A DNA stretch of 64,000 bases, taken from positions 4,050,501-4,114,500 of the forward strand of contig OZ004586.1 in the NCBI GenBank assembly GCA_963924555.1. Reading direction: 5' to 3'. This DNA is from Crambe crambe (Eukaryota > Porifera > Demospongiae > Poecilosclerida > Crambeidae). Every line of letters starts with the position of its first letter. The first letter of the stretch is position 1. Both the position numbers and the translations under genes were made by a program. Positions 1 to 64,000 of the stretch are shown piece by piece. Below the pieces are notes generated by a model. The model did not search any database, was not told the DNA's origin, and saw only the letters and a list, made by a program, of their open reading frames with translations.

Positions 1-3000
1 CAAGATATCCAGATTTGAGACAAGCAAGTGAGCTGGTCTACACGGATAACGACTTTTTCAAGGATTTGGACTTTGCCATGTCGTCCATTGACTCAGATAA
101 ACCACTAATGTTTGTCCACGATCGTATCAGTTCCAGCCTGGCCAAATGTCTTCAAATCAGGCCCCTCAGTGAAGAACTTGACATCGCTGAGGATACTTTC
201 GGAGATGCTGGTCAACAAGAACCTTTGATTGTGCGACTGAAAAACATTTTACGAAATTACAAGGATGGCTTGACAATCGTCAAGGAGCTGATTCAAAATG
301 CTGATGATGCAGAAGCCACTGAAATCAATATTTGCTTTGATGCTCGGATTCATGATATCAATCGTAAGAAGCTATTCTTTCCAGACATGGTCGAGTCACA
401 TGGTCCAGCTTTGGTAGTCCACAATAACACCACATTCAGTGATGAGGACTTTGATAATATCCAGAAGTTAGCAGGTGCTACTAAACAGGAAAAGCACTTG
501 AAAATCGGGAAATTTGGCATAGGATTCTGTTCAGTCTATCATATCACTGATGTACCTTCCTTCATCAGTCGAGATAGACTGTACATATTCGATCCAACAC
601 TTAAACATCTTAGCACTGCGGTTAAAAATCGAGCACAACCAGGACAAAGAGTCAAATATTTGTCCAGAGTCATCAAGAAATCTCAGCAGCTTCAGCCATA
701 TGCTGGACTCTTTGGGTTTGATATGAATACTCAATATGATGGTACAATATTCCGACTGCCATTTCGAACTTCAGTGAGTGAACTTAGTAGTACTTGCTAC
801 TCCCAAGCAGCAATAGGGGAGCTCATCGAATCCATTCAACAATGTGGTGATAAACTTTTACTGTTCCTGCAACATATAAAGCACATCACTGTCCAAAAGA
901 TTGAAACTGGTCAGACCAAACCTACACTTCTCTACGAAATCTGTAAAACAACTCCACATTTTCCAATTGCTCTTAACTGTGCTTCAGTCATTTGTGTAGA
1001 ATCGAATCATGTCAGAGGAAGGACAAAATCGAGCAATAACTGGCTGGTTTCAAAGCATGAGTCCCTTTATGGAAGGAAGAGTGGAATAGCTCATGTAGCA
1101 TGCATGTTAAACACAATTAGAGGAGGCAGGAGCTCTTATAATGCAGATACTGACATTCAAGGAGAAATCTTTTGTTTCCTCCCTCTCTCACAGACCACTG
1201 GCCTTCCCGTCCATGTGAGCTGTAACTTTGCTGTCATTAATAACCGGCGAGGAATATGGACTTCTGACGAATCCACTTCACGATCTGGTACTGAAGTTCA
1301 GTGGAATATTTTCTTGATGACAAAGTTAATCCCTCAGGCTTATATTGGACTTCTCAGTAACCTGCAAAGATTGCATGAGAACAATATGCTACAAAATTAC
1401 ATATTTTATTATTTATGGCCACTAAAGTCTGAACTTCAACAGAAAAATCCATGGGAACACTGTCTCAATGCATTTTATAATATCTTAGCATCACAAAAGT
1501 TGTTTCACTCAGAGTCAATCAAAAAGTGGTTGACTGTTCAGCAAAGTAAATTCCTTGAATCGAACATCCTTTGCCAGTCTGGTACACCATCTTGTGTGTT
1601 TGATGTTGTACATCAACTGTCTCTTCCTATAGTGGACCTGCCCTCTTCATATAGATCCCAACTTAATCTTAAAGGACTCACTATTACTGAGGAGGTTTTC
1701 ACACATTTGTTTTTTAATAGTTTACCAATACTTGCTGGAATCAAAAGTAGCCGAAATGAAGTTGTATGCTACATGCTTGAAGTTTATGTTTCACAATGTG
1801 ATAGGCAATCAACTATAAGTAGGCTACTCAAGCAGTATTTTAATAGCCATGCTTGTATCCCATGTGGTAAAGATGGAGATGTGCTCAGGAAATGTACTGA
1901 AGTGATTCATCCAAGTGCCTCTTTTGCTAGTTTATTCGATGAGTCTGAAAACAGATTTCCTCTCGAGGTACTTGTCACTAGACACCTAGCTAGCACAGCT
2001 ATGCAACGCTTGGGAATGATGTACCAATCCATATCTTGGACTCTTGTGTTGGAAAGAGCCGGAACTGTAGCAACTCTCATTGAAGTTGATAGTCTGAAAG
2101 CACTCAATCGTGTAAAGCTAATTCTCGAGACAATATCAGATCCCACTCGCGTATCAGGTGATCCACCGAATGGTAGTGCCACAATAGACAAGATTCCCTT
2201 TCTCCCTGTCATGAAAAAACCCAATAAATACCCACTACAATGGTATGGAGATAAGCAACAGTTGCTCTGTGGGAATCAGTTAATGTTATCTGGGGTATAC
2301 AAGCCTAACCCTGATTACACAAAAACAAGGATAGCGGGATCACAAGTTGCATTCGTTTGTGAAGCTCAGCCTGAGAGAGGTGGGTGTGGCTTTATAAACA
2401 AAGGAATGAGAGAGCTATTGCATCTGAGATCTTCTCCCACTAGTGATGAAGTAATAGCACACTTGAAAATTGTAATCAACTCAGAACCTTCACTCGATCC
2501 CAAATGGACAGACATTACTTGTTCCAGAGTATATGACTTCATTGACTCAGCCATGAACAAATCTAGTGATTCTGGACTTGATTTACATGGATTAGAGTGT
2601 CTTCCATGCATCTGGAGTGGACAGAGATTCCTGAGCCTCGATGCAGTTGCAATAGAGTGGAAGTTGAAAGATGGTCCATACTTACATGCAGCACCACCAT
2701 CCATTGGGTCTAAAGATAAGCTTTTATCAGCTCTGAAGTTAAAGAAAGAGTTCTCCCATCATGATGCCCAGAACGCTCTAGAAAAGATGAAAAAAGACTT
2801 TGGAAATGAACCAGTTGATGAATCCTGCAGAAAGCTCATCATTGAGTTGATAGCAATCTTTCAGAAAGTGGAGCCCCCAGAAGAGAAATTTAAGGATTTT
2901 ATAGTCTATTTGCCAAATAAGAATTATATTCTTCGGAAGTCTACTGATTTATCATACAATGACGCCCCTTGGGCTGCAATTGATGATATTCAGAACTATG

Positions 3001-16200: not shown

Positions 16201-17633
16201 AAATTATAAACTGTATAGACTCAATGCTTATACACACAACGACCATTCTTAGGCCAACTTATATTAATTTTGCTTATTCAAGGTAAAGTATCATGCTTAT
16301 TTCTTGCCTGGTACTACTTGGCAGCCAAAGGCTCTTATTCATAGAGACAAGAATAGGCCACACACAAAACAAACATACTCTGTAGTGATACACCATTAGT
16401 ATAAATATTGACCGGTATTTCCGTATAGCAGGTGGACTTTATGATTTCTACAGAATTTATCTATTATGGTTCACACTTAAATGCACGAAAAGTGTACCCC
16501 ACAAAAATTATGTGCTATACTGTGAACAGAAAATTTAGCAAGTGTGTGGCTGGCCTTGGCAGACAGTGCTGGTTACTTGGTATCAGAGAGTGCGGTAGCA
16601 CTCTCTATGTAGGGATGACTCGGACGGCCGCGCGCGCCGCCTATAGACTAATACAAAAGTGAAATTCCAGTTCCCCCACTTAGACCTAACAAAAGCTACT
16701 GTGAATGATTATCCAGCCTACTAGAGCCTACTACAATGTGCAGACCAAGTTTCAGGACCAGGGAGCTTACCGTTTCAGAAATACGGCAAGCAGGTAAATC
16801 GCTATATTCTTCTTCTTCTCTATTATTATTATTATTCTTCTTCTTATTATTCTTCTTAGACAACCATATCTCTCGAACCACTCAAGCTACAGCTATGATT
16901 TCTGGACAAATCCACTCCAAATTCTACGAACTACGATCTTTTCTACTCGTTGATCCTCGAAAGAGTCGATGAAAAAGGAGACACTAAGGAGCACAGCACT
17001 TGACTAATTCAATTAGGAAGCCATCTTTTCTATAATACGCATGCGCATGTATTTGATATCCAATTATTCGAAATTATAATATTATTCAGCTGCCTCTAGC
17101 TAGCTAGCTAGGTATAGGTATATGTAGCTAGAATAATGATGATGATGATGATAGACTACTGTATCGACTCGGGGATTTAGATTCAACAAGGTAGACTCTA
17201 TTTCAGCATCTTCTACCTCCACCTTGACTCGTTGATAGTGATTGGGCTGGTATGCTATTGGAGAACTATTCTTCTTTCATCTGTCCCTGCATACACATAG
17301 AAGAATGAACTCTATACATAGCTAAAACCATAAAAGAGAGGAAAAAAAGACCAGGAACAAGTAAGGGAAAAAGCATTTCGTGAAATGAAAAAAGATGTAG
17401 GGATGACCACTGCACAAAAAAGTAAAGAAACAAGAAGGATGGAATCTTTGTTCTGTATATCCAGCCAACAATCCCTACATGTACGTACATTACTAAGGGA
17501 TGTTCAGTTTAATGCAGACAACAATTCAGACATAAAAGTACACTGGTTGGTTGTGCAAAACAAAACAAAACGCATAGAGCTACCTCTTGTCACCTCACTC
17601 AGACTCTCTCACATGTGCCATTCCCTAGTACGT

Positions 17634-23600: not shown

Positions 23601-26600
23601 GAATATGGACTTCTGACGAATCCACTTCACGATCTGGTACTGAGGTTCTGTGGAATATTTTTTTGATGACAAAGTTAATCCCTCAGGCTTATGTTGGACT
23701 TCTCAGTAACCTTCAAAGATTGCATGAGAACAATATGCTACAAAATTACATATTTTATTCTTTATGGCCACTGAAGTCTGAACTTCAACAGAAAAATCCA
23801 TGGGAACACTGTCTCAATGCATTTTATAAAATCTTAGCATCACAAAAGTTATTTCACTCTGAGTCGATCAAAAAGTGGTTGACTGTTCAGCAAAGTAAAT
23901 TCCTTGAATCGAACATCCTTTGCCAGTCTGGTACACCATCTTGTGTGTTTGATGTCGTACATCAACTGTCTCTTCCTATAGTGGACTTGCCCTCTTCATA
24001 TAGATCTCAACTTAATCTTAAAGGACTCACTATTACTGAGGAAGTTTTCACACGTTTGTTTTTTGATAACTTACCAATACTTGCTTGCATCAAAAGTAGC
24101 AGGAATGAAGTTGTATGCTACATGCTTGAAATTTATGTTTCACAACGTGATAGGCAATCAACTATAAGTAGGCTACTCAAGCAGTATTTTGATAGCCATG
24201 CTTGCATCCCATGTGGTAAAGCTGGAGATGTGCTCAGGAAATGTACTGAAGTGATTCATCCAAGTGCCTCTTTTGCTAGTTTATTTGATGAGTCTGAAAA
24301 CAGGTTTCCTCTTGGGGTACTTGTCACTAGACACCTAGCTAGCACAGCTATGCAATGCTTGGGAATGATGTACCAATCCATATCTTGGACTCTTGTGTTG
24401 GAAAGAGCCAGAACTGTAGCAACTCTCATTGAAGTTGATCGTCTGAAAGCACTCAATCGTGTGAAGCTCATTCTCGAGACGATATCTGATCCCACTCGCA
24501 TGTCAGGTAATCCATCGAGTGGTAGTGCCACAATAGACAAGATTCCCTTTCTCCCTGTCATGAAAAAACCCAACGAATACCCACTTCAATGGTATGGAGA
24601 TAAGCACCAGTTGCTGTGTGGGAATCAGTTAATGCTATCTGGAGCATTTTCGTATATCCCAGATTTGACCAATATGAGAATAGCAGGATCTCAAGTTGCA
24701 TTTATCAATGAAGCCCTACCAAAAGATGGTGGGTGTGGCTTTATAAAAGGAGGAATGAGAGGATTATTGCATCTGAGATCTTCTCCTACTTGTGATGAAG
24801 TGATAGCACACTTGAAGATGGTAATTGACTCGTCGTCTACAATTGACTCCCAGTGGATCAATTATACTTGTTCTGAGATTTATGCTTTCATAGAATCAGC
24901 CCTCATAAAATCAGGTGATTCTGGACTTAATTTGCATGGATTGGAATGTATTCCATGTATCTGGAATGGGCAGAAATTTTTAAGCTTTGACACAGTTGCT
25001 TTAGATTGGAAGTTGAAGGAAGGTCCATACTTATATGTGGTACCACCATCTATAGCATCAAAACAAAAGCTGCTATCAACTCTGAAGGTAAAGAAAGAGT
25101 TCTCCCATCATGATGCCCAGAAAGCTTTGGGAAAGATGAAAGCAGATTTCAGAGATAAACCTGTTACTGAATCATGTAAAAATCTCATAATTGAGTTGAT
25201 ACCAATCTTTCAGAAAGTGGAGTCTCCTCAAGAGAAGTTCAGAGGTTTCAGTGTATATCTACCGAATAGGAAGCTTGTCCTTCAGAAGGCAATCGATTTA
25301 GCATACAATGATGCCCCATGGGCTGCCTCTGATGATGAATATGACTATGTACATGAAATGTTCCCTCGAAATCTTGCTGAAGAATTGGGTGTGAGACTGG
25401 TAAGATCTAGGATGCTTGACCAGTTTGTGTCCAAGAAAGATACATACTTTGAAGGAGTTGAATTCGGTCAGCATGAAAAACTTACCAGGAGAATTCAGAA
25501 CATTATCAGAGACTATCCCTTTGATATTACCATTCTCAAAGAATTACTACAAAATGCTGATGATGCAAAAGCTAAAAAGATGTACTTCGTTCTCGACAAA
25601 CGTACCCATGGCACAAATAGCGTGATATCTCGAGGTTGGTGTGAACTACAAGGACCAGCTCTTTTGGTTTGGAATGACAGCACATTCACTGAAAAAGATC
25701 TGAAAGGCATTCAAGAACTGGGCCTTGGTAGCAAACGTTCAGATGCAGAAACAATTGGTCAGTATGGTATCGGTTTCAATGTGGTATACCATCTCACTGA
25801 CTGCCCAAGTTTGATAACAGGTGGTGAAACACTTTGCATCATGGACCCTCATTGCAAGTACATCAAAGAAGCTGATCAACTGCATCCTGGGAGAAGATAT
25901 GATGACTTGCATAAAGGTTTTTGGAAGAAATTCCCGGATATGAGTTCAGCTTATCTTCAAACTGGCTTAGATGATGTCCCACCTGAAATTTTAAATGGTT
26001 CTCTTTTTCGGTTTCCTATACGTCATTCCCTTGACATGATTAAGTCTTCTCGAATTGTGGATCATCAGGATCGAAAGTCTTCACAACCTCTCACTGCTAA
26101 GGATCTGTATGATCTCATGCATAAGTGGATGCCTCAAATGAAACAGGCCATGTTTTTTCTTAATAACGTGAAAGAAATCAAATTTATGGTGATAGAGGAA
26201 GAGGGCATCAAGTTGGACACAAAGTTCCACTTTAAAACCGAGATTCCACAATCAGCTGCTTTCAAAGACGAATCACAAAAGTTTCATGAAACTCTTTCAG
26301 CTTTCAAGAATGAAAAGAATTGTAAGACTCTTGTTATTCGTTATCCTCTGACAGTAACTGACATCAACTGTCAAGAAGATGGAGGTAAAGATGTACAGGA
26401 AAAATGGCTGGTTCAGCAAGGTGTTGGTGACATCAACAATGAGTCTCAAATGTGGCAGTATGTGAGAACAGTTAAGCCAAGACATGGAATTGCTGCACCT
26501 TTGAGCCTACCTCGTAGTACTACATCCGGAATTGCTGCACCTTTGAGTTTACTACCTTCTAATACTGAGGGACAGCTATTTTGCTTCTTGCCACTTCCTG

Positions 26601-49979: not shown

Positions 49980-51689
49980 GTAAGGCATGGCATGCCAACA
50001 GTTGTAGATCATAAAAAGAGGGTGAATTCACAGAAGTTGTGGCAGGGAAAAGCTGGGTGGGTCCACTCTGTTAGATAACAGTGCTTCCGAACTTTGACTC
50101 ATTTTCACCAATCTTATTAAATGTGTTTGAATTTGGAAAAAAAATATTTTTGGTCAAATAGCTACTGGTGAATCAGTATGGTTGGAGGCTCTGAGATAAC
50201 ATAATGGAAAAGAGTTTTAAGGAGAGAATGAACTCACAGGAGTAAGGTGGCTAGCTAGTGGCTACACTTCTGTCAGATTCCTCCATGAATCATAGACCTG
50301 GGTAGGTCATGCATTAATTTATATACCAATAAATAATCTTATTGGATATCTCAGGTCATGAATAGTAACTCTAGCAATGTGTGTGCACATGGTATTTAAG
50401 CATCCCACTATTATAATGTTATTTCTAGAGCACTTTCGATACTACGTTGTACATCATTAAATCTAAATTGGTAATGGAGCTGGCTTTAAGGGTGGTCAGA
50501 CATATGGTTGCTAAGGGGAAATATCTCTACAACTATTTGCAGCAGGATCTTTTAACAATCACAGGACTATGAAATGTAGTACTACACAGCAAAAAATGAA
50601 GGGAAATTTAGCTATTTTTTACCAAGGTTACGAGCGCACTCTATCTCGATGATCATTGGCAGGCAATCACTGATTTTTGCTCTAGTACCTTCTATTCCAG
50701 TCTCCTACAAAACTATGATTAGCATTATTGATTTTTATAAGATCCTGTGTATTCAGCTGCCATACAAACTCTAGATCATATATGCATTAAAGGAATCTCA
50801 TCTTACCACTTACTAGCAGCTTGCAACATATGGGCCCAATCCCCTGAATTAGATTAGCTAGAACTGTAGAACCAATATAGAAATCTGCCCACTAATATTA
50901 TTGCTAGCCATGCCCCCTTAATAATAGGGCTTTTTTTTTTTTTCAAATTCTTGATAAATTAATTTTGCTTGGCCTAGAGGTTGGTCATTGTGTTTGTAGG
51001 TATTATTCGACTGAACCATCCGAACCACCCCTGGCTACACCCATGCACAATGACCATCAGTCCATCACTAGGCCAAGCAAATTAAAAAAATAATAACCTT
51101 GCATCGTAACACCCTACCAAAGCCTTATTCAATCATGATAACAAATACAGATGTCAGTTACAAGACAGTAGCACAAAATACGCTCAGTGGTTTGGGCTAC
51201 CTGGATTGGAATATGGGTTGGCACGTACTGTTCATACATGAAGCGAATTCACTACAGCTATCTATGCATACAGCTTCCTGCAACTTGCATCAAAGATTTG
51301 AAGCACGAATGAGTATAAAACTGAGCCATAGAAATACTACACTTGCTTCTTGCTCGTTCAAATGTTAAACATTGCACTAGTAACCATTCTCACATGTATC
51401 GGAGGGTGAGGGGGTAATCCCTCAGACAACACTTAGAATTTCTATTGTGTTCACTTACATTTTATAGGCTTCACGCACCGAGTGTGGCAGTGAATCATAA
51501 TACATATTTCAGGTATTGCTTACACCCAGAGCACAGTTATAACCATTTTTATTTATTGTTATTATTTATCCGCGCATGCACGAGGTACGTACGTAGAATT
51601 ACTGTATGGGAAAGTGTATGGCAAGCCTCAATTTGATCCAGCACTGCAGTCATAATATTTTGTACTTTTTGCACTCTTGTATTCACCAG
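49980..51689 (+). other. Intron 2 of gene C
   Basis: A 1710-bp phase-1 intron, GTAAGG...TTCACCAG. Its first part resembles gene B intron 2 (TCAGGTCATGAATAGTAACT occurs in both); the rest differs. It contains the foldback at 50960-51083. Confidence 0.85.
50960..51083. mobile_element. Foldback MITE in gene C intron 2
   Basis: AATTTTGCTTGGCCTAG and CTAGGCCAAGCAAATT are inverted, as are GGTCATTGTG and CACAATGACC inside them. A T-rich left flank and A-rich right flank extend the pairing. It is absent from gene B intron 2. Confidence 0.7.
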
Positions 51690-54600
51690 ATGTTCCCACT
51701 ATCATTAGTGGTAGCAAAGTCGCTTATCTTGAACCTCAAGAAAAATTGTGGAGCGGACATTCAGGAAGATCTTTCCAATTATCTGAAGTACATAAGCTTG
51801 GTACTGGTGACCTTACACCATACTACGGCATAGCTGGTTTCAGTCCAACGATTACGAGCTATGATCGAACTTTGTTTCGTTTTCCTCTGCGCAACACAGT
51901 GTCCAAATTATCGGAGAATATCTACTCCATAGAGAAAGTTAATGAGCTTTTTGATGCACTGAAATCAGAAGCAAAGCTTCTACTGTTGTTTCTTCGTTCC
52001 ATAATAACCATCGAAGTTTATAACATAAATGAACATGGGCAGCATACTCTCTCCTTTCAGGTCAAGGTTTCTGATGCTTTTGTGGACGAACTTACCAAGA
52101 AACGAAGATCACTGCTGGATGATCTCAGATGTATCCACATTTCGGATCAGTATAATTTCTCAAATATAATCAAATTTACTGCCAAATTTGATGTCTGTGT
52201 GTACGATGCCAGTACTAGACAGACCCTTACCAACCACTGGCTTGTGGCCAATCAAGTTGGTTCCTCAAATTCTACTGTTAGGAAAGAATCTGTCGAGCAC
52301 AAAGTTTTCCCCTGGGTTGGAACAGCCTTGGAATTGGATAACCCTGGTAGTGGCAGGATATTTTGTTTCCTTCCAATGCCCATAGATGCTGCTTCTAATC
52401 TTCCCGTTCATGTCAATGGGACATTTGGGTTGACTGACGACCGTAGGAGTCTGAAGTGGCCTGTTGGGGATAATCAAAATGATTTCAGAGCAAAATGGAG
52501 CAAGCTCCTTGTAAAGGAGGTCATACCATTCTGTTATGTTGATCTCTTGATTGAAGCTAAGAATCATCTTAGCATGCATGACAGTAACATCTTCTACAAA
52601 GCTTGGCCTGATGTCAATAGGCTCAGAGGATCACACTGGGAAGATGTTTTAACTTCACTATTTCAAACTCTGCTGAATAACAGTGTGATCTGGTCTGCAC
52701 CACTCGGGCAATCAGGTGAGTGGGTTTTACCAACCAATGCTGTCTACGTCCCCAAATCACAGGAATTGATATCGATTGTTGAACGCACCCTTACCTCTTG
52801 TGGTGTGAAGCTAGCAGATGTTCCCACATGTGTATGGGATGCTTTCTCTCATGTGAGAACCTCTGTGACTTCAGTTAGCCCAAAGTTAGTGCGTGATAAA
52901 CTCTGTACATATCCGAATAGCTACACATCTATCGATGCTGTAGGAAAATATGAGCTGCTGAAATACTGTCTATCTGATGGCATTTCTAACTACAATGAAT
53001 TGGCCAATTTGCAACTACTCCCATTAGCCAATGGGATTTTTGCTGCCTTTCAGACTAGCAGTTATTTATTTAATCCATCCATATACCTATGCACACCAGA
53101 ATGCCCAAGGTATTTACTCCCTAATCTCGATTCAAAACTTGTAGATGTTTCAAGTGATCCAACTTTGCAACATCTCCTAACACAAGTTGCCAATTCTAAC
53201 CATACACAGCTCAAATTGTTAAATGTGGCCACAGTGGCTTCACTGTTGGATGAAGCCATGCCTTCACAGTGGAGTAGTAGGATGGAAGTAGTTTCATTTA
53301 CAAGCTTGCAGTTTCCAATTGATTGGTTCGAGAAGTTCTGGGATTGGGTACAAAACAAGAATCTAGGAAGTTTTCAAGGCAAGTTCATTGTCCCAATTGA
53401 AGTTCCTGGCTATCATCCAACAGCGAAATTCAATGTTGCCAAATTATCCAATCAAAACCTCCTCTACTTTCCATCCCATGTTTCTCTCAATAATGAGATG
53501 ATCACAATATTGAACAAGTTCAGCATTCTCTATGTGAAACAGAGCAGCTTTCCTTACCTCACACACAGGCAGATATCACAATACCTCACACCTTTTTCCC
53601 CTGAAAATCTGCTGCAAGCTATATCCAAGAATAGCTCTTACTATAATGTTTCACTGACTCCACAAGAAGCAACCACTTTAAAAATACAATTCTATAATAT
53701 GCCAGGTATTTGGAACTACCAGCATATTATTATGAATTTAAAGATATTCAGTACTTCTTCAAATACTTTAGGAAGGCTTTGCTCTGTATCTGAAGCTTCT
53801 TCTCAGTCAATTCTTAGAAAGGCTTTATCTGAGCCTTCCAATCCAGTGGTTGACATCTCTGTCTTCCCTCAGTCGATAGTTTTATTCTCCAGCAGTGATT
53901 ACTATCAAAATGAATTGCTGAAGAAACTTTCCATCCAGGCACCAAATGATGTTAACTTTGTAACAAGCTACATTTTCCCTTACATTCAGAATGGCACTAT
54001 TACTGGGGATGATGTCGACAAAATCATGACTCGAGTGCTGGATGCTTATCAATCTTTACAATTCAAAAATTACAGCATAACTAACTCCATACAGCAACTG
54101 AGATTTGTCAAGATAGCATCGGGTTACAGAAAATGTCCAAATGAACTGTATGATCCAAATGATGTCACCAGTCAGATATACTTAGGTGAAGATGTCTTTC
54201 CACGTGCACCATATGACAAGTACTTAAACGTACTTAGATCTTGTGGCATGAAAACATCAGTCAGCCCTCAGGAAGTTCTTGATGTCATATACAGCATAAG
54301 CACAGGATCGAGTAGCCATCCACAACAAGTCAATTCAACCAAACTTAATCGTGCTAAGGCCATCTTGAAGTACATTGGAAATAGAAGTTTCACAAGCCAA
54401 ACCTCAGGCAGCTTTACTCTTAACAGAAGCATTCACAGAGGATACCTTCCTTTCAATACTGCTGTGCAATTGCTCTCTTGCAACAGGAGTTGGCTTCCTG
54501 TTCTCTCCAAACGACCCAGAAACTACCCCAGTTCTCTACCCTGGAGAGGAGATGGCTTTACATCACATTTCTTTGCTCTGAATGGCTCTGCTTGTGTGTC

Positions 54601-56936
54601 TTGTTCGAGTTCACCTTCTCTTCCCTTACTGTATGGTTCACAAGTGTATTTCATTGCTCCAGATGTAGATGGTGTAGATGCCACTGTTTCTGCTCTTCTG
54701 GGGTCTGAAGAACCCACAGCACATCTTGTCTCACACTTCACTCAAGTAATAGCCTATAAGAATTCCATCTCATCTGACCAAATGATATCATTTGTTTACG
54801 ACATTTACTCCAAAATGTTACAGATGGTGAACCAGGGTTCAAAAGGTCAACTCAATGGTCTTAGATCCATGAATGATTGGATATACATAAAGAAGTATGG
54901 CAGATTTGTTAGTGTGAATGCTGTAGCATTGCAGCAGAATCCAGGGTTCCGTCATAATGTAGAACCTTACTTGCACATACTTCCAGACAGTATCTCTAGT
55001 TTTTCTACTCTATTCACTTCATTTGGCATGAATAAGACTCTTTCTGACACACAAATTATATCCATATTGAGTGTTATCAAGAAAGAGATTACTAGAAATC
55101 CTACTTCTGTAAATCCTGAAGAAGCATGGAGCACAGTTATGGCCATTCTCAACTGGTTAACGAATAATGGAACAGAGGAAACATCTCATGATTCTATTCT
55201 TGTTCCAGCTGAATCAGAATCAAGATATCCAGATATGAGACAAGCAAGTGAGCTGATTTACACGGATAACGACTTTTTCAAGGATTTGGACTTTGTCATG
55301 TCGTCCATTGACTCAGATAAACCACTAATGTTTGTCCACGATCGTATCAGTTCCAGCCTGGCCAAATGTCTTCAAATCAGGCCCCTCAGTGAAGAACTTG
55401 ACATCGCTGAGGATACTTTCGGAGATGCTGGTCAGCAAGAACCTTTGATTGTGCGACTGAAAAACATTTTACGAGATTACAAGGATGGCTTGACAATCGT
55501 CAAGGAGCTGATTCAAAATGCTGATGATGCAGAAGCCACTGAAATCAATATTTGCTTTGATGCTCGGACTCATGATATCAATCGTAAGAAGCTATTCTTT
55601 CCAGACATGGTCGAGTCACATGGTCCAGCTTTGGTAGTCCACAATAACACCACATTCAGTGATGAGGACTTTGATAATATCCAGAAGTTAGCAGGTGCTA
55701 CTAAACAGGAAAAGCACTTGAAAATCGGGAAATTTGGCATAGGGTTCTGTTCAGTCTATCATATCACTGATGTACCTTCCTTCATCAGTCGAGATAGACT
55801 GTACATATTCGATCCAACACTCAGACATCTTAGCACTGCAGTTAAAAATCGAGCACAACCTGGACAAAGGGTCAAATATTTGTCCAAAGTCATCAAGAAA
55901 TCTCAGCAGCTTCAGCCATATGCTGGACTCTTTGGGTTTGATTGCAATAGTGAATATGACGGTACGATATTCCGATTACCTTTTCGAACTTCAGTGAGTG
56001 AACTTAGTAGTACTTGTTACTCCCAAGCAGCAATAGGGGAGCTCATCCAATCCATTCGACAATGTGGTGATAAACTTTTACTGTTTCTGCAACATATAAA
56101 GCGCATCACCATCCAACAAATTGAAACTGGTCAGATTAAACCTACACTTCTCTATGAAAGCTGTAAAACAACTCCACAATTTCCAATTGCTCTTAACTGT
56201 GCTTCAGTCATTTGTGTAGAATCGAATCATGTCAGAGAAAGGACAAAATCGAGCAATAACTGGCTGGTTGCAAAGCATGAGTCCCTTCATGGAAGGAAGA
56301 GTGGAATAGCTCATGTAGCATGCATGTTAAACACCATTAGAGGAGGCAGGAGCTCTTATAATGCAGATACAGACATTCAAGGAGAAATCTTTTGTTTCCT
56401 CCCTCTCTCACAGACCACTGGCCTTCCTGTCCATGTGAGCTGTAACTTTGCTGTCATTAATAACCGGCGAGGAATATGGACTTCTGATGAATCCACTTCA
56501 CGATCTGGTACTGAAGTTCAGTGGAATATTTTCTTGATGACAAAGTTAATCCCTCAGGCTTATATCGGACTTCTCAGTAACCTGCAAATATTGCATGAGA
56601 ACAATATACTACAAAATTACATATTTTATTCTTTATGGCCACTAAAATCTGAACTTCAACATAAAAATCCATGGGAACACTGTCTTGATGCATTTTACAA
56701 CATCTTAGCATCACAAAAGTTGTTTCACTCAGAGTCTATTCAAAAGTGGTTGACTGCTCAGCAAAGTAAATTCTTTGAATCGAACATCCTTTGCCAGTCT
56801 GGTACACCATCTTGTGTGCTTGATGTCGTACACCAGCTCACTCTCCCTATAGTTGACTTGCCCTCTTCATATAGATCTCAACTTAATCTTACAGGATTGA
56901 CTATTACCGAGGAGGTTTTCATACGTTTGTTTTTTG

Positions 56937-57385
56937 ACAAGTGAATGCAAAAAATTTCTTCGAAATAAAAATGTGAAGTAGGGATGCTATTATAACTGCA
57001 GCTTCATTATGAAAACCAAGTACTGCAGCATCGAAGCAGTATGGCCCAAAAATCTAGCTGGAATATGTATTATAACTGCATGCAAGAGAGTGAACTTAGT
57101 GAAGTGACCCTTACCCATCATCAAGTACGAGATACTATTCCTACTTCACTCCCTTGGCCCTTGATCATGGGAGTGAAGTAGGAATAGTATCTTGTACTTG
57201 ATGATGGGTAAGGGTCACTTCACTAAGTTCACTCTCTTGCATGCAGTTATAATACATATTCCAGCTAGATTTTTGGGCCATACTGCTTCGATGCTGCAGT
57301 ACTTGGTTTTCATAATGAAGCTGCAGTTATAATAGCATCCCTACTTCACATTTTTATTTCGAAGAAATTTTTTGCATTCACTTGT
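56937..57385. repeat. 449-bp near-perfect inverted repeat
   Basis: Two 217-bp arms (56937-57153 and 57169-57385) with very few mismatches surround a 15-bp loop. One mismatch lies in CAAGTACGAGATAC versus CAAGTACAAGATAC. The left arm reaches into the last exon bases (ACAA). Confidence 0.93.
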
Positions 57386-57780
57386 TTGCATTCTTTTTCT
57401 TTGTGATTATGAAAATTGATAGACACTAAAGGCTTCCTTGATTGAACTAAATTTATTTAATGATCAGTATTTCATTCTGTTCAGGGAGGAGAGTTTGAAG
57501 GATGATCATCTGCAGTGTAATGGAGTACCGAAAGGAGTGAACATTTTAAAAAGTGAACAGCATTAGCTAATTGTTACATATGTGATCACTGAAATAATTA
57601 TTGAGATGGTACGTATGTCTTGCTTGAGGGAGGAGTATGGGGAGTTTATGCATTTGGTGTAGTGATCATAATAGTGGATGCCATCAAATGGCCACATCCT
57701 GTGCAGGTGTTAGCTATATGAGGAGAACTGCTATTAATTGCCCCACCCCTTTTATGAGGTAATATCGCTAAGATTTTTTT

Positions 57781-57896
57781 CATACGAGGCTGCAGCACAT
57801 TATAGATAGCCCAGCTAGATTTTAGGCTATCCCTACTTAACCTTTTTATTTGAAGAAATTTTTTACGCTCACTTGTTTCTATCCTTTTTCTTAGTG
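57781..57896. repeat. Degenerate copy of the foldback arm
   Basis: CCAGCTAGATTTT, ATCCCTACTT, GAAGAAATTTTTTACGCTCA and CTTGTTT follow the same order as the right arm near 57260-57385. Similarity continues past the arm end (CTTTTTCTTAGTG versus CTTTTTCTTTGTG), with internal deletion. Confidence 0.65.
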
Positions 57897-58403
57897 CTTG
57901 AAGTTGAATGAGGGAGGCTACAGTACAGTAATATCACAAAGCCAGCTCTACATAAACCTCTTTTGTAGGTACATACAGTGTCTCTGGTTGAAGAATTTGT
58001 TTAGCTATTTAAGTTTTGTTGATATAAAACTTTACAGCAACAGCAATGTAAATGACATGTACACGGCATGGTGAAGTGAGCTGACTACACTACAGTACTG
58101 GCTATAATGCTACTATAGGATGAGCATCTGTACTGTAATTCAGCAAGGAGTGACTGGAACATCATCAGATAATGAATGAAGACCTTGGCTATAGCTAAAC
58201 TTAAGCTTACGTGGCTCCGCCCATAAGCCCCGCCCCCTTCAAAATGGCGTAGAAAGATTAGCAGCTGTGTTCCGAGTGCTATCGAATAGTGAAGTAGAGC
58301 CTTAGTCAAAACTAATAGCAAAAGATCAGCCTCTAGGTGCCGCTCTAACAGATGGCCAAAGCAGAATTTTGATGACTATAGCCAGTAAGTCGGTACGTCG
58401 ATC

Positions 58404-58446
58404 TTATTATTATTATTATCCTTATTATTATTATTATTATTATTAT
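58404..58446. repeat. TTA microsatellite
   Basis: About 14 TTA units with one CC interruption, inside the insertion. Confidence 0.9.
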
Positions 58447-58641
58447 AAAGAAAAAGAACGAAAAGTCAATTTTAGAACTCGTTTTTTTCTTATGTTGGCG
58501 AATGAATTTTTGGCTTTTGAACATTCTCCTCTCTTCTTTGTAGATATAATAATTCACTGTAGCCTTCTGAGAACCTGTAGAGTAAGGGTAGAAGAGAAAG
58601 AAGAGTTTTTAGTTTATACTGTCCTATGGACTTTGACCTGC

Positions 58642-58678
58642 CATCCCTACTTAGAGAGTGCTACCGCACTCTCTGATA
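58642..58678 (+). mobile_element. Hairpin element terminus, copy 2
   Basis: CATCCCTACTTAGAGAGTGC, then TACC and GCACTCTCTGATA: the reverse complement of 16581-16617 with two or three differences. It ends where gene C coding resumes, and supplies the pyrimidine-rich stretch and AG of the candidate acceptor. Confidence 0.65.
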
Positions 58679-61600
58679 GTTTACCAATACTTGCTTGCAT
58701 CAAAAGTAGTAGGAATGAAGTTGTATGCTACATGCTTGAAGTTTACGCTTCGCAATGTGATAGCCAATCTACTATAAGTAGGCTACTCAAGCAGTATTTT
58801 GTTATCCATGCTTGCATCCCATGTGGTAAAGATGGAGATGTGCTCAGGAAATGTACTGAAGTTATTCATCCAAGTGCCTCTTTTGCTAGTTTATTCGATG
58901 AGTCTGAAAACAGGTTTCCTCTCGAGGTACTTGTCACTAGACACCTAGCTAGCACAGCTCTGCAATGCTTGGGAATGATGTACCAATCCATATCTTGGAC
59001 TCTTGTGTTGGAAAGAGCCGGAACTGTAGCAACTCTCATTGAAGTTGATCGTCTGAAAGCACTCAATCGTGTGAAGCTCATTCTCGAGACGATATCTGAT
59101 CCCACTCACATGTCATGTAATCCACCGAGTGGTAGTGCCACAATAGACAAGATTCCCTTTCTCCCCGTCATGCAAAAACCCAACAAATACCCACTTCAAT
59201 GGTATGGAGATAAGCACCAGTTGCTGTGTGGGAATCAGTTAATGTTATCTGGAGCATTTTCGCATAACCCAGATTTGACTAATACGAGAATAGCAGGATC
59301 TCAAGTTGCATTTATCAATGAAGCCCTACCCAAAGATGGTGGGTGTGGTTTAATAAGAGTAGGATTGAGAGAATTATTGCATCTGAGATCTTCTCCTACT
59401 TATGATGAAGTGATAGCACACTTGAAGATGGTAATTGACTCATCGTCTACAATTGACTCCCAGTGGATCAATTATACTTCTTCCAAGATTTATGCTTTTA
59501 TAGAATCAGCCCTCAATGAATCAGGTGTTTCTGGACTTAATTTGCATGGATTGGAATGTATTCCATGCATCTGGAATGGGCAGAAATTTTTAAGCCTTGA
59601 CACAGTTGCTTTAGATTGGAAGTTGAAGGAAGGTCCATACTTATATGTGGTACCACCATCCATAGCATCAAAACAAAAGCTGCTATCAACTCTGAAGGTA
59701 AAGAAAGAGTTCTCCCATCATGATGCCCAGAAAGCTTTGGGAAAGATGAAAGCAGATTTTGGAGATAAACCTGTTAATGAATCCTATAAAAATCTCATCA
59801 TTGAGTTGATATCAATTTTTCAGAAAGTAGAGTCTCCTCAAGAGAAGTACAAAGGTTTCAATGTATATCTACCAAATAAGAACCTTGTCCTTCAGAAGGC
59901 AATTGATCTAGCATATAATGATGCCCCATGGGCTGCCTCTGATGATGAATATGACTATGTACATGAAATATTCCCTCGAAATCTTGCTGAAGATTTGGGT
60001 GTGAGACTAGTAAGATCTAGGATGCTTGAACAGTTTGTGTCCAAGAAAGATACATATTTTGAAGGAGTTGAATTCGGTCAGCATGAAAAACTTACCAGGA
60101 GAATTCAGAACATTATCAGAGACTATCCATTTGATATTACCGTTCTCAAAGAATTACTTCAAAATGCTGATGATGCAAAAGCTCAAAAAATGTACTTCAT
60201 TCTCGACAAACGTACCCATGGCACAAATAGCATAATATCTCGAGGTTGGTGTGAACTACAAGGACCTGCTCTTTTGGTTTGGAATGACAGCACATTCACT
60301 GAAAAAGATCTGAAAGGCATTCAAGAACTGGGCCTTGGTAGCAAACGTTCAGATGCAGATACAATTGGTCAGTATGGTATTGGTTTCAATGTGGTATACA
60401 ATCTCACTGACTGCCCAAGTTTGATAACAGGTGGTGAGACACTTTGCATCATGGACCCTCATTGCAAGTACATCAAAGAAGCTGATCAACTGCATCCTGG
60501 GAGAAGATATGATGACTTGCATAAAGGTTTTTGGAAGAAATTCCCAGATATGAGTTCAGCTTATCTTCAAAGTGGCTTAAGTGATGTCCCTCCTGAAATT
60601 TTTAATGGTTCTCTTTTTCGATTTCCTATACGTCATTCCCATGACATGATTAAGTCTTCTCTGATTGTGGATCATCAGGATCAAATGTCTTCACAGCCTC
60701 TCACAGCTGATGATCTATATGATCTCATGCATGAGTGGATGCCTCAAATGAAACAGGCCATATTTTTTCTTAATAATGTGAAAGAAATCAAATTCTTGGT
60801 GATAGAGGAAAAGGGCATCAAGTTGGACACAAAGTTCCACTTTAAGACCGAGATTCCACAATCAGCTGCTTTCAAAGCTGAATCACAAAAGTTTCATGAA
60901 ACTCTCTCAGCTTTCAAGAATGAAAAGAATTGTAAGACTCTCGTTATTTGTTATCCTCTGACAGTAACTGACATCAACTGTCAAGAAAATGGAGGTAAAG
61001 ATGTACAGGAAAAATGGCTGATTCAGCAAGGTGTTGGTGATATCAACAATGAGTCTCAAATGTGGCAGTATGTGAGAACAGTTAAACCAAGACATGGAAT
61101 TGCTGCACCTTTGAGCCTTCCCCATTCTAACACTGAGAGGTCAGAGGGACAACTATTTTGCTTCTTGCCACTTCTTGAGAAGAGTGGCCTACCTGTTCAT
61201 GTGAATGGTCACTTCATTTTGGATTCAAGTAGAAGAAATTTATGGAAGAGCACTGACCCAGATGACAAAGATAACAGATCAAGATGGAATGCCAATCTCT
61301 TCAAAGCAATAGCATCTTCATATGCCAACTTCCTTGCTAATGCCAAGGATTATTACATTGATTCCAAATATAAAGGATGGACACTTGCTTTAAATGCCTT
61401 GCGCAACTATTTTAAATTATTCCCAAGATTTGGTGTAGTCAGTGATACACTGAACTGTGATATTTACAAGATATTATTGAAAGACAATGCCCAAATTTTG
61501 TGTGTATTTGAATCTGATGCTTCAACTAGTAGTGGGAAAAAAGTTGTTGCAACTTGGCATCCACTGATTTCTCAGGCACAATCTGATCAAGTATACTTCT

Positions 61601-63560
61601 GGTCATACAAAATGACTGGTGCAGAACGAAAAGTCATTCATCCTATCCTCTCATCCATAGGAATGAAACTAACCTCTGCTCCACCCAGAGTAATGGACTG
61701 GTTTAATGCTCTAATATCCAAACCTGAACAAGAAAGTGTAACCCGATCCTCTGACCAACAAGAAATGGCTCTTGCTTCAACCAAACTCCAACAAAAATCT
61801 GCAACTCCTTCTAACCCTCAAGAAGTGGCTCCTACTTCACCTAGTACTACATGTACAAGCCATAAAATTCCTTCTCTCTCTCCACAGTCAGCTTTTGATT
61901 ATTACACAAAGCATAGCAGTTTTGCATCAAGTGGCACTATGGAGCCATGTCAAATATCAGAAACTGTTTTCCATGATACTGAAACGTTCTTGGTCTTCAT
62001 CAAGTATTTGCTAAAGATCGAAATAGTGGAAAATAAGAATGAAACTAGTAAACCTGGTACAAGAGAGACAGTGAGTATTAGTGCAACACCTGAACCCCCT
62101 AAGACATTTCCAGAAGAGCCTTTCTCACATTTTCTCTTACTGTCAGCTGATGGAGTTCTGAGGAAATTTGATGTGGAGAATAAGATTCTGAATTCCAATT
62201 TTTCACATCTCTTTCCACGTCAGCACCATGATAAATTCTTACATCCAGAGTTAACAACTATATACTTCCATCCCTCTTATTTCATCCATCCTGGGGATAC
62301 TGACAAAGAAAGAATATTGAAAGTTATTTTCAATATTTTAGATGACACCTTCCACCAGAAATTAAAATCTCAAAAGTGTGTGACCAACTATTCAGCTGTG
62401 ATCAGAAAAGACACACTAAAACAATACTGGACATGTTTTTATCTTGATGGTATTTTTTCCAAGTATCTAAACAAGTTTCTAAAGAATTGGGCTTTGATGC
62501 TAACTGTTGATGATTGCTTATTCTCCTTGAGTTCTGAGGTAGTGCCAATGTATCTTCCTGAAACACCTGATCACACAATCCAGAATATGTGTATTGTAAT
62601 GCAGAAATTGAATATGCCATTTCTGGATACTTTGGTTGTCAGGACCCAAGTTGATTGTCCTAAACTGGATGAGCAGGATCGTATTTTAAACAATGTTTCT
62701 CAAGTTAATAATGGCACTCCTTTGGTCTCTACATTGAAGACAAAGGAAATTGATATGATGATATGTTATTTCTCTCAAAGTCCAAAACATTTGGATGAGA
62801 AGAGGCTAGCCCTTGTACAGTCACTTCCTTTCTTTGAAGATGTTTTGGGACAATATCAACCAATAATTGGCAGAGAAGCATTCATCTGGCCTCAGGATGC
62901 ATTAGCTACTGGTTACGAGTCATGGTCAAAAGGATCAAACAGTATTTTTATCAAAGATAATGTGAAATGGCAGGAATTAGGCTCTTATCAGCAGTTATCC
63001 ATGAAGACTATCAGCAAGGAACTATTATATGTAAAGTTCATTTTCCCTAATTTCTGTGAGTTGGATGAAGATGAGCGTTATAAACATTTGGAGCACATAA
63101 GAGATATGGTGTACTCTACTTGTAAACACTATAAAGATCTTGATACACGTTACCAGTCAGAATCTACACTTAAACAAATTTATGAAGCAAGACAGTTCAT
63201 TGGATCCTTGACTGACTTGAAGTGCATAGGCTCTGATAGTTCCTGCTTTCAACCTGTCAGTGCTTTCTGCGATCACACGATAGAGATATTCAAGGTCTTC
63301 TCTTGTGATTTCCAAAAGTTACCAGAACAATTGCAATCTGAAAAATGGCTGACATTCTTTAAAGAGCTTGGCCTCAAGGTTGTTTTAACTACAACTGAAT
63401 ATTTGAATATTTGCAATAAGACTGCTCAGAGAAAAGTAAATGCAGACATTTCTAAGTGCTCAGCTGCTTTAATTGAGTACATATTCACTAAAGAAATTAC
63501 GGGAAAATGGTACCATGACTGTTCTTTCTTAAGTCAAGTTTCTAATATTGCATTTGCTTG

Positions 63561-63570
63561 CACTGTCTTG
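63561..63570 (+). other. 8-bp frameshifting deletion in gene C
   Basis: Gene B reads CACTG-AAAATCTG-TCTTG; gene C reads CACTG-TCTTG. The lost 8 bp ends in CTG like the preceding bases, consistent with slippage at microhomology. The original frame then reaches a stop at 63637-63639. Confidence 0.9.
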
Positions 63571-64000
63571 TTTAGAGTGGATACATCCTGGTGTTTGTCA
63601 AGAGGCTTCATTGGTGAGCTTGAATGGTGCTGCTTCTGACGAACTCAAGAACCTCTTATGGACAGTAAGGCCCATTGTTAAACTTCCATGGGTATGCACA
63701 TCATATTATCCTGATAAGAAGACAAAATCCCTTCTAAGTAATCTGAAAATTGTTGTTAAAGCTAGCATTGATGATGTTATATCAAACATAAAGAATATCA
63801 GTACAAAGAGCCCGTATGCTAATGAGGCACTCTTTGGCAATTATCCAAGTAACTTGACTCCACCTTCTGGAGTGTTGACTAATTTAATGTTAGTCATGTT
63901 GGATAATCTGATATTCCTCAATGACAATCTATCAAGCGTTCCCATTTCAGCTCTTGCCAAACTTTCATGTATCCCAGTCCACAGTGATCTATTCGAAAAA

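Follow-up and report, generated by a model that had tools for sequence, protein, structure and literature searches.

A recently transposed antisense Helitron in a sacsin-like exon of the sponge Crambe crambe, with a GT...AG frame that is very probably coincidental

The window analyzed here, 64,000 nucleotides (nt) of the sponge Crambe crambe (contig OZ004586.1, positions 4,050,501 to 4,114,500, assembly GCA_963924555.1), contains a sacsin-like gene with an insertion in its coding exon. Comparison with other copies and with empty sites identifies the insertion as a non-autonomous Helitron of 1739 nt, which occupies positions 56938-58676 in antisense orientation to the gene. In its own orientation the element reads 5′-TCAGAGAG...CACTTG-3′. 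It is flanked by A and T, and comparison with paralogous empty sites reveals no target duplication at this site. A preliminary description of this DNA had proposed a transposon-like insertion that may act as a newly gained intron. The transposon part of this proposal holds, the transposon being a Helitron, while the suggestion that the element is built to splice is not supported. Almost certainly, the insertion is a recently transposed antisense non-autonomous Helitron whose most likely effect on the gene is disruption, and the GT...AG frame around it is coincidental.

The empty site is found in several relatives of the interrupted gene. The genome searched comprises 143 Mb in 119 contigs (G000), with the window on contig C9. 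Eight sacsin-like stretches in this genome match the exon, at 95-100% identity over 421 nt, and all of them lie in a 263-kb cluster (C9 3930941-4193636); two of the eight are on the opposite strand. In seven of the eight the site is uninterrupted (five judged by the site pattern, two read directly), the window copy being the sole filled one. Paralogs A and B align across the site without gaps, in agreement with the preliminary description, which had placed the insertion in an exon uninterrupted in both. The pre-insertion site is TTTTTTGA^TAGTTTACC, coding for F-D-S-L-P, and an empty allele of the window site would read TTTTTTGATAGTTTACC. A second empty/filled pair is found among copies encoding a RepHel protein: L065 has CTACTATAACAG, and L061 has an element between CTACTA and TAACAG (CTACTA^TAACAG), with no target duplication and with the same ends as the window insert. 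Because paralogs A and B and the other copies show the empty site, the ancestral peptide was F-D-S-L-P, the element spans 56938-58676, and the AG belongs to the host. The GT and AG had been taken for the exact edges of the insert; the letters are as described (GTGAAT from 56941, CTCTCTGATAG to 58679), but the empty-site comparison rules them out as element edges. Excision of 56941-58679 does keep the frame, as had been claimed, giving ...TTT GAC AAT TTA CCA and F-D-N-L-P-I-L-A. A repeat wrongly placed within an intact gene during assembly might be suspected, given the high copy number of the repeat and the single assembly examined. This is very unlikely, since the exact ends and the clean A^T site are as in other copies and the flanks match the paralogs without gaps.

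The ends of the insert are shared by a large family. A similarity search with the insert supplied thirty loci, a sample biased toward insert-like copies, and 25 of these were measured (L014, L022, L023, L028 and L030 were left out, their alignments missing one or both ends). In Helitron orientation all 25 start with TC, end with CTTG and are followed by T, and 24 are preceded by A; the sole exception, L010, is a head-to-tail CTTG|TCAG junction. The 35-nt 5′ end has 803 exact matches in the genome (386+417, one loop base being allowed as C or G), a count of ends that includes the stacked ends of nested copies. The 36-nt 3′ end has 619 matches, inner palindrome arms included. The copies closest to that in the window, L002 and L003, each differ from it by 4 substitutions over 1739 nt (with 1 and 2 gap openings), and the insertion is therefore recent.

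Copies of the family are often telescoped. Stacked 230-nt 5′ blocks, many of them joined at CTTTA^TC, occur at L068 1-1402, L067 114-734, L016, L026 and L065 3001-4500, and 3′ remainders beginning at the TAA microsatellite come after the CTTG end of another copy. This arrangement fits a history in which copies repeatedly landed within the (TAA)n of older ones. A simple string rule flagged 12 of the 25 measured copies as lying in or beside another copy's TAA microsatellite. Head-to-tail CTTG|TCAG junctions are found between two full copies (L010 3224, which is L018 1501, at C16:2874513) and between the 3′ end of a relative and a family 5′ end (L016 3453, C5:6720490); these are compatible with either read-through or a circle junction. 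The window itself holds another end of the family, CATCCCTACATAGAGAGTGCTACCGCACTCTCTGA with T after it, on the minus strand between gene copies at 16581-16617.

The 3′ terminus of the insert is a near-perfect palindrome of 449 nt (Table 1), whose arms carry 1-5 mismatches in all 25 measured copies. Such long inverted arms at one end raise the question of whether the insert is a fold-back or miniature inverted-repeat transposable element (MITE)-like cut-and-paste element, with the palindrome as its terminal inverted repeats. Both arms, however, are at the same end and the other end is different, target duplication is absent at both empty sites, and a RepHel partner shares the ends; the cut-and-paste interpretation was rejected on these grounds and is extremely improbable. 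An insertion at T^T of the Helentron type, suggested by the microsatellite and the hairpin, was also rejected, the target being A^T.

Table 1. Coordinates of the Helitron insertion, its target site and the interrupted gene within the window.
Feature	Position	Strand	Details and basis
Non-autonomous Helitron, 1739 nt	56938..58676	-	5′ end TCAG at 58676, 3′ end CTTG at 56938; ends common to 25 measured copies and two empty/filled comparisons
A of A^T target	56937	+	Empty sites
T of A^T target, first host base past element	58677	+	Paralog comparison and measured copies
449-nt near-perfect palindrome, Helitron 3′ terminus	56937..57385	.	220-nt arms, 2 mismatches, 9-nt loop; 56937 is host target A
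5′-terminal hairpin AGAGAGTGC-GGTA-GCACTCTCT	58653..58674	-	9-bp stem; fold -15.8 kcal/mol; within 35-nt end occurring 803 times
Subterminal inverted repeat, 11 nt, 5′ copy, AAGTAGGGATG	58642..58652	-	Read from sequence; repeat pairs
Subterminal inverted repeat, 3′ copy, CATCCCTACTT in Helitron orientation	56976..56986	-	Repeat pairs
TTA/TAA microsatellite inside element	58404..58446	.	At other loci copies sit in or beside another copy's microsatellite
GT of proposed donor CAA|GTGAAT	56941..56942	+	Element nt 4-5; window sequence and 30 fetched loci
AG of proposed acceptor, in host exon (GA^TAG)	58678..58679	+	2-3 nt past element; paralog empty sites
In-frame TGA if unspliced	56942..56944	+	Element nt 5-7; open reading frame 51677..56944; protein would end ...FFDK
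Sacsin-like coding exon, open frame upstream of insertion	51677..56937	+	SACS domain, Pfam PF25794, E=2.4e-97; 51677 is mechanical start of open reading frame
Same exon, open frame downstream of insertion	58677..63639	+	SACS domain, E=4.8e-74
Paralog A, uninterrupted site TTTTTTAATAGTTTACC	1710..1735	+	Gap-free alignment
Paralog B, uninterrupted site TTTTTTGATAACTTACC	24059..24084	+	Gap-free alignment

The genome contains 67 matches to the Helitron_like_N domain (PF14214), fragments included. On contig C1, a family 5′ end at position 5039213 (L067) is 99.6% identical to the first 232 nt of the insert, and a second, diverged 5′ block comes after it. An open frame of 2428 codons, 1.3 kb downstream of this end, contains Helitron_like_N (2.2e-26), PIF1 (7.1e-27) and OTU domains, and its helicase part resembles PIF1 helicases and Helraiser 7lcc (E 8.4e-33) in a PDB search. 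Judged by its shared end, the C1 RepHel element is likely the autonomous partner of the insert. Its sisters L065 and L066 have a 3′ end that consists of a 235-nt palindrome finishing GCACTTACTTG|T (L065 2767-3001), and in the RepHel group L062-L064 an inverted repeat of ~160 nt is followed by the end CCCTTACTTG|T. In both groups the ends are inverted repeats finishing ...CTTACTTG|T. The loop between the 160-nt terminal repeats is flipped between L062 (1627-2421) and L063 (1613-2384), L064 being as L063, which suggests that recombination between the arms may have inverted it. In L061, a CAAG...CTGA unit that comes after the RepHel frame was considered as the 3′ end of that RepHel element and rejected as a separate nested insertion, because L065 has the empty site; in sister copies the RepHel 3′ end is located beyond this point (L065 2767-3001). 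In the N-terminal part of the L061 RepHel frame (P0001), at residues ~43-207, a 15-residue unit, HRQELKVRSQEYNRA, recurs ~11 times, as counted by eye. Relatives finish with CAAGTAAGC or CAAGTAAGT (L061 8512-8560, L065 2767), ends that in antisense are near the consensus splice donor.

The origin of the GT...AG frame can be traced to the two sides of the junction separately. Read in antisense, the 3′ terminus begins CAAGT, the complement of ACTTG, in 28 of the 30 loci, the ends of L022 and L023 being altered. At the opposite side, 806 exact 5′ ends with a following T continue as TAG in 70 cases (8.7%), TAC in 66 and TGA in 24, and TAG lies beyond the 5′ end in 4 of the 25 measured copies. No preference for AG beside the family ends was found among the 806, G after TA being no commoner than C. 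With GT fixed in the element and TAG met by chance, about 1 in 11 antisense insertions, perhaps more, would therefore give a frame-keeping GT...AG in the absence of selection; independent host sites may have TAG more often, because some of the 806 ends are stacked on other copies, where no TAG would be expected. The argument that an in-frame GT...AG is improbable for a random insertion thus fails, the GT being a family end and TAG occurring at 70 of 806 ends.

The usual splice-donor consensus has G at -1 and at +5. The proposed donor CAA|GTGAAT keeps the GT, A at +4 and T at +6 and is without G at -1 and +5, as judged by a general consensus that may not be that of this genome. In the acceptor CTCTCTGATAG the run of pyrimidines is short. 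The preliminary description had the terminal hairpin supplying these pyrimidines; the run is real, if short, and is one arm of the Helitron 5′ hairpin, but a splicing purpose finds no support. Nor does the end of the element appear to be built to splice, given that the acceptor AG is from the host, that TAG and TAC are similarly frequent (70 vs 66 of 806) and that the donor is without both G residues.

For each of the 25 copies the two flanks were joined, and the longest frame free of stops across the junction was compared with that in 50 shuffles. This frame measures 799 codons in the window copy (L001), a length capped by the stretch taken, and 291 codons in L019, both far above shuffles, and L016 is marginal (122 vs 113). 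L019 was rejected as a second exonic insertion: its right-hand frame is shifted relative to the left, and its surroundings would fit a short native intron, so that this copy is in a gene, but probably within such an intron. Only the window copy, among these 25 similarity-chosen copies, clearly interrupts a long coding frame.

The 3′ end of the element brings an in-frame TGA into the exon (Table 1), and disruption would therefore be the most likely effect on the gene; the window paralog is probably truncated by this TGA, the site being uninterrupted in the other seven. The insertion could instead be fortuitously spliced from the donor in the element to the acceptor in the exon, yielding F-D-N-L-P with N for the ancestral S. 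The GT and AG are there and the frame is kept, but the donor is without G at -1 and +5, and TAG is present at 8.7% of ends. The stretch 55502-60500 minus the element has no stop and a ratio of nonsynonymous to synonymous substitution rates (dN/dS) of 0.26 versus paralog B. Given the youth of the element, however, the frame would be expected to be open even if the element were never spliced out, and for the same reason the intact frame and the dN/dS mostly reflect the gene before insertion. Introners that carry a donor and borrow an acceptor have been described in a survey (PMC9860276). A point against splicing is that the 449-nt palindrome would fold back right after the donor. Taken together, fortuitous splicing is unlikely.

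It is even less probable, indeed scarcely credible, that the entire family consists of introners whose antisense ends are maintained for splicing. The conserved CAAGT might be cited for it, as might the relatives L065 and L066, whose CAAGTAAGT is near the consensus donor. The CAAGT bases, however, are the Helitron 3′ terminus and are accounted for by transposition, AG is not preferred at the other end, and only 1 of 25 copies is clearly in a coding frame, 12 being string-flagged in or near the microsatellite of another copy. A family-wide supply or reliable capture of both splice sites, expected of introners, was not found in this family (TAG at 70 of 806 ends, TAC at 66). Another proposal is that antisense Helitrons of this clade bear a donor at nt 4-5 from the 3′ terminus (GTGAAT here, GTAAGT in relatives), such that landing at an exonic A^TAG gives a frame-preserving intron at birth. 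This too is improbable; if true, a rolling-circle transposon would be an occasional intron maker.

The recent Helitron transposition preferred here can be placed in the framework of the Helraiser model (PMC4778049). By analogy, a RepHel protein would nick the 5′-TC end and peel off one strand, and the 3′ palindrome would pause the helicase, leading to cleavage at the CTTG end and formation of a circle. The sacsin-like exon would then receive the circle at one of its A^T dinucleotides, where the GT fixed in the element would meet a TAG at a chance target. Several points weigh against this account. The transposition and circle steps are modeled on Helraiser, and the effect on the gene is deduced from the sequence. 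The 3′ end is CTTG and not CTRR, and a 449-nt palindrome replaces the usual 16-20-nt hairpin; because of these two features the insert is not a textbook Helitron1. The 5′ end of the partner comes from the C1 copy and its 3′ end solely from sisters on C5 and C16, and the 235-nt palindrome of the partner group is related, not identical, to that of the insert (~88% over the outer 49 nt).

The claim of intron gain mostly dissolves: it lacks proof, and chance accounts for the main argument behind it. What remains is an ordinary event, a Helitron inserted into an exon, caused by a somewhat unusual Helitron clade. A transposable element with GT near one end gives a frame-keeping GT...AG by chance in ~9% of antisense insertions, a figure that can usefully serve as the null when genomes are scanned for introners. 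What is truly odd about this clade is that its 3′ hairpin has turned into a near-perfect palindrome of 449 nt in the abundant non-autonomous copies, and the RepHel elements of the clade likewise have long inverted-repeat ends. The giant palindrome bears on the requirements for a 3′ terminator, and the family is young enough for testing. Should the window copy be spliced after all, it would represent a Helitron-derived new intron.

Among known systems, the insert family agrees with Helitrons in its A^T insertion without target duplication, its 5′-TC end and its RepHel partner with shared ends. Canonical Helitron1 elements have a short hairpin ~10-12 nt upstream of the 3′ end. The insert differs from them in its CTTG end (25 of 25 measured copies, versus CTRR/CTAG) and in its 5′ hairpin and subterminal inverted repeat. 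Helraiser, which ends in TC and CTAG, and Helibat share with the insert the 5′-TC, the A^T site, the absence of duplication and a RepHel partner (PMC4778049). The head-to-tail junctions of the insert family are circle-compatible, as in Helitron1 (PMC4778049). In Helraiser a 19-bp palindrome 11 nt upstream of the end serves as terminator, unlike the 449-nt palindrome of the insert, which reaches the terminus (PMC4778049). No description of a 3′ palindrome of this size was found in the Helitron literature, as far as the available texts go and with Repbase outside the search, and the literature titles and abstracts listed contained nothing on this Helitron family or on an intron-making Helitron.

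Individual features of the insert are found in other groups. HELPO2 of Pleurotus has a CTTG-3′ end and AT insertion, as does the insert, but is fungal and has an ordinary subterminal hairpin (PMC4289320). The asymmetric subterminal inverted repeats (AAGTAGGGATG/CATCCCTACTT) and 5′ hairpin of the insert are of the Helitron2 type. Helitron2/FoHeli elements of Fusarium similarly have asymmetric inverted repeats and, in FoHeli1/2, a TCAG start with an early hairpin, and their multiple 5′ ends are ascribed to self-insertion, as in the insert family (PMC5148889). They differ in their ATTTT 3′ end, as opposed to CTTG, and the part of the report available mentions no giant 3′ palindrome for FoHeli (PMC5148889). 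With Helentron/DINE-1 elements the insert shares subterminal inverted repeats, an internal microsatellite and many non-autonomous copies, whereas DINE-1 prefers TT targets and has a short 3′ stem loop (PMC4067079). Unlike in Helentrons, an endonuclease domain was not reported in the C1 RepHel partner (Pfam, E up to 0.001). In introners, finally, one splice site may come with the element while the other is borrowed, and the main text of the survey is without the word Helitron (PMC9860276). The insert resembles them in being a transposon that interrupts a coding exon and is bounded by a GT...AG pair that keeps the frame (PMC9860276). It differs in that its acceptor is a chance feature of the host and the family has no family-wide splice signal, and its length of 1.7 kb compares with medians of 30-654 nt for introner families (PMC9860276).

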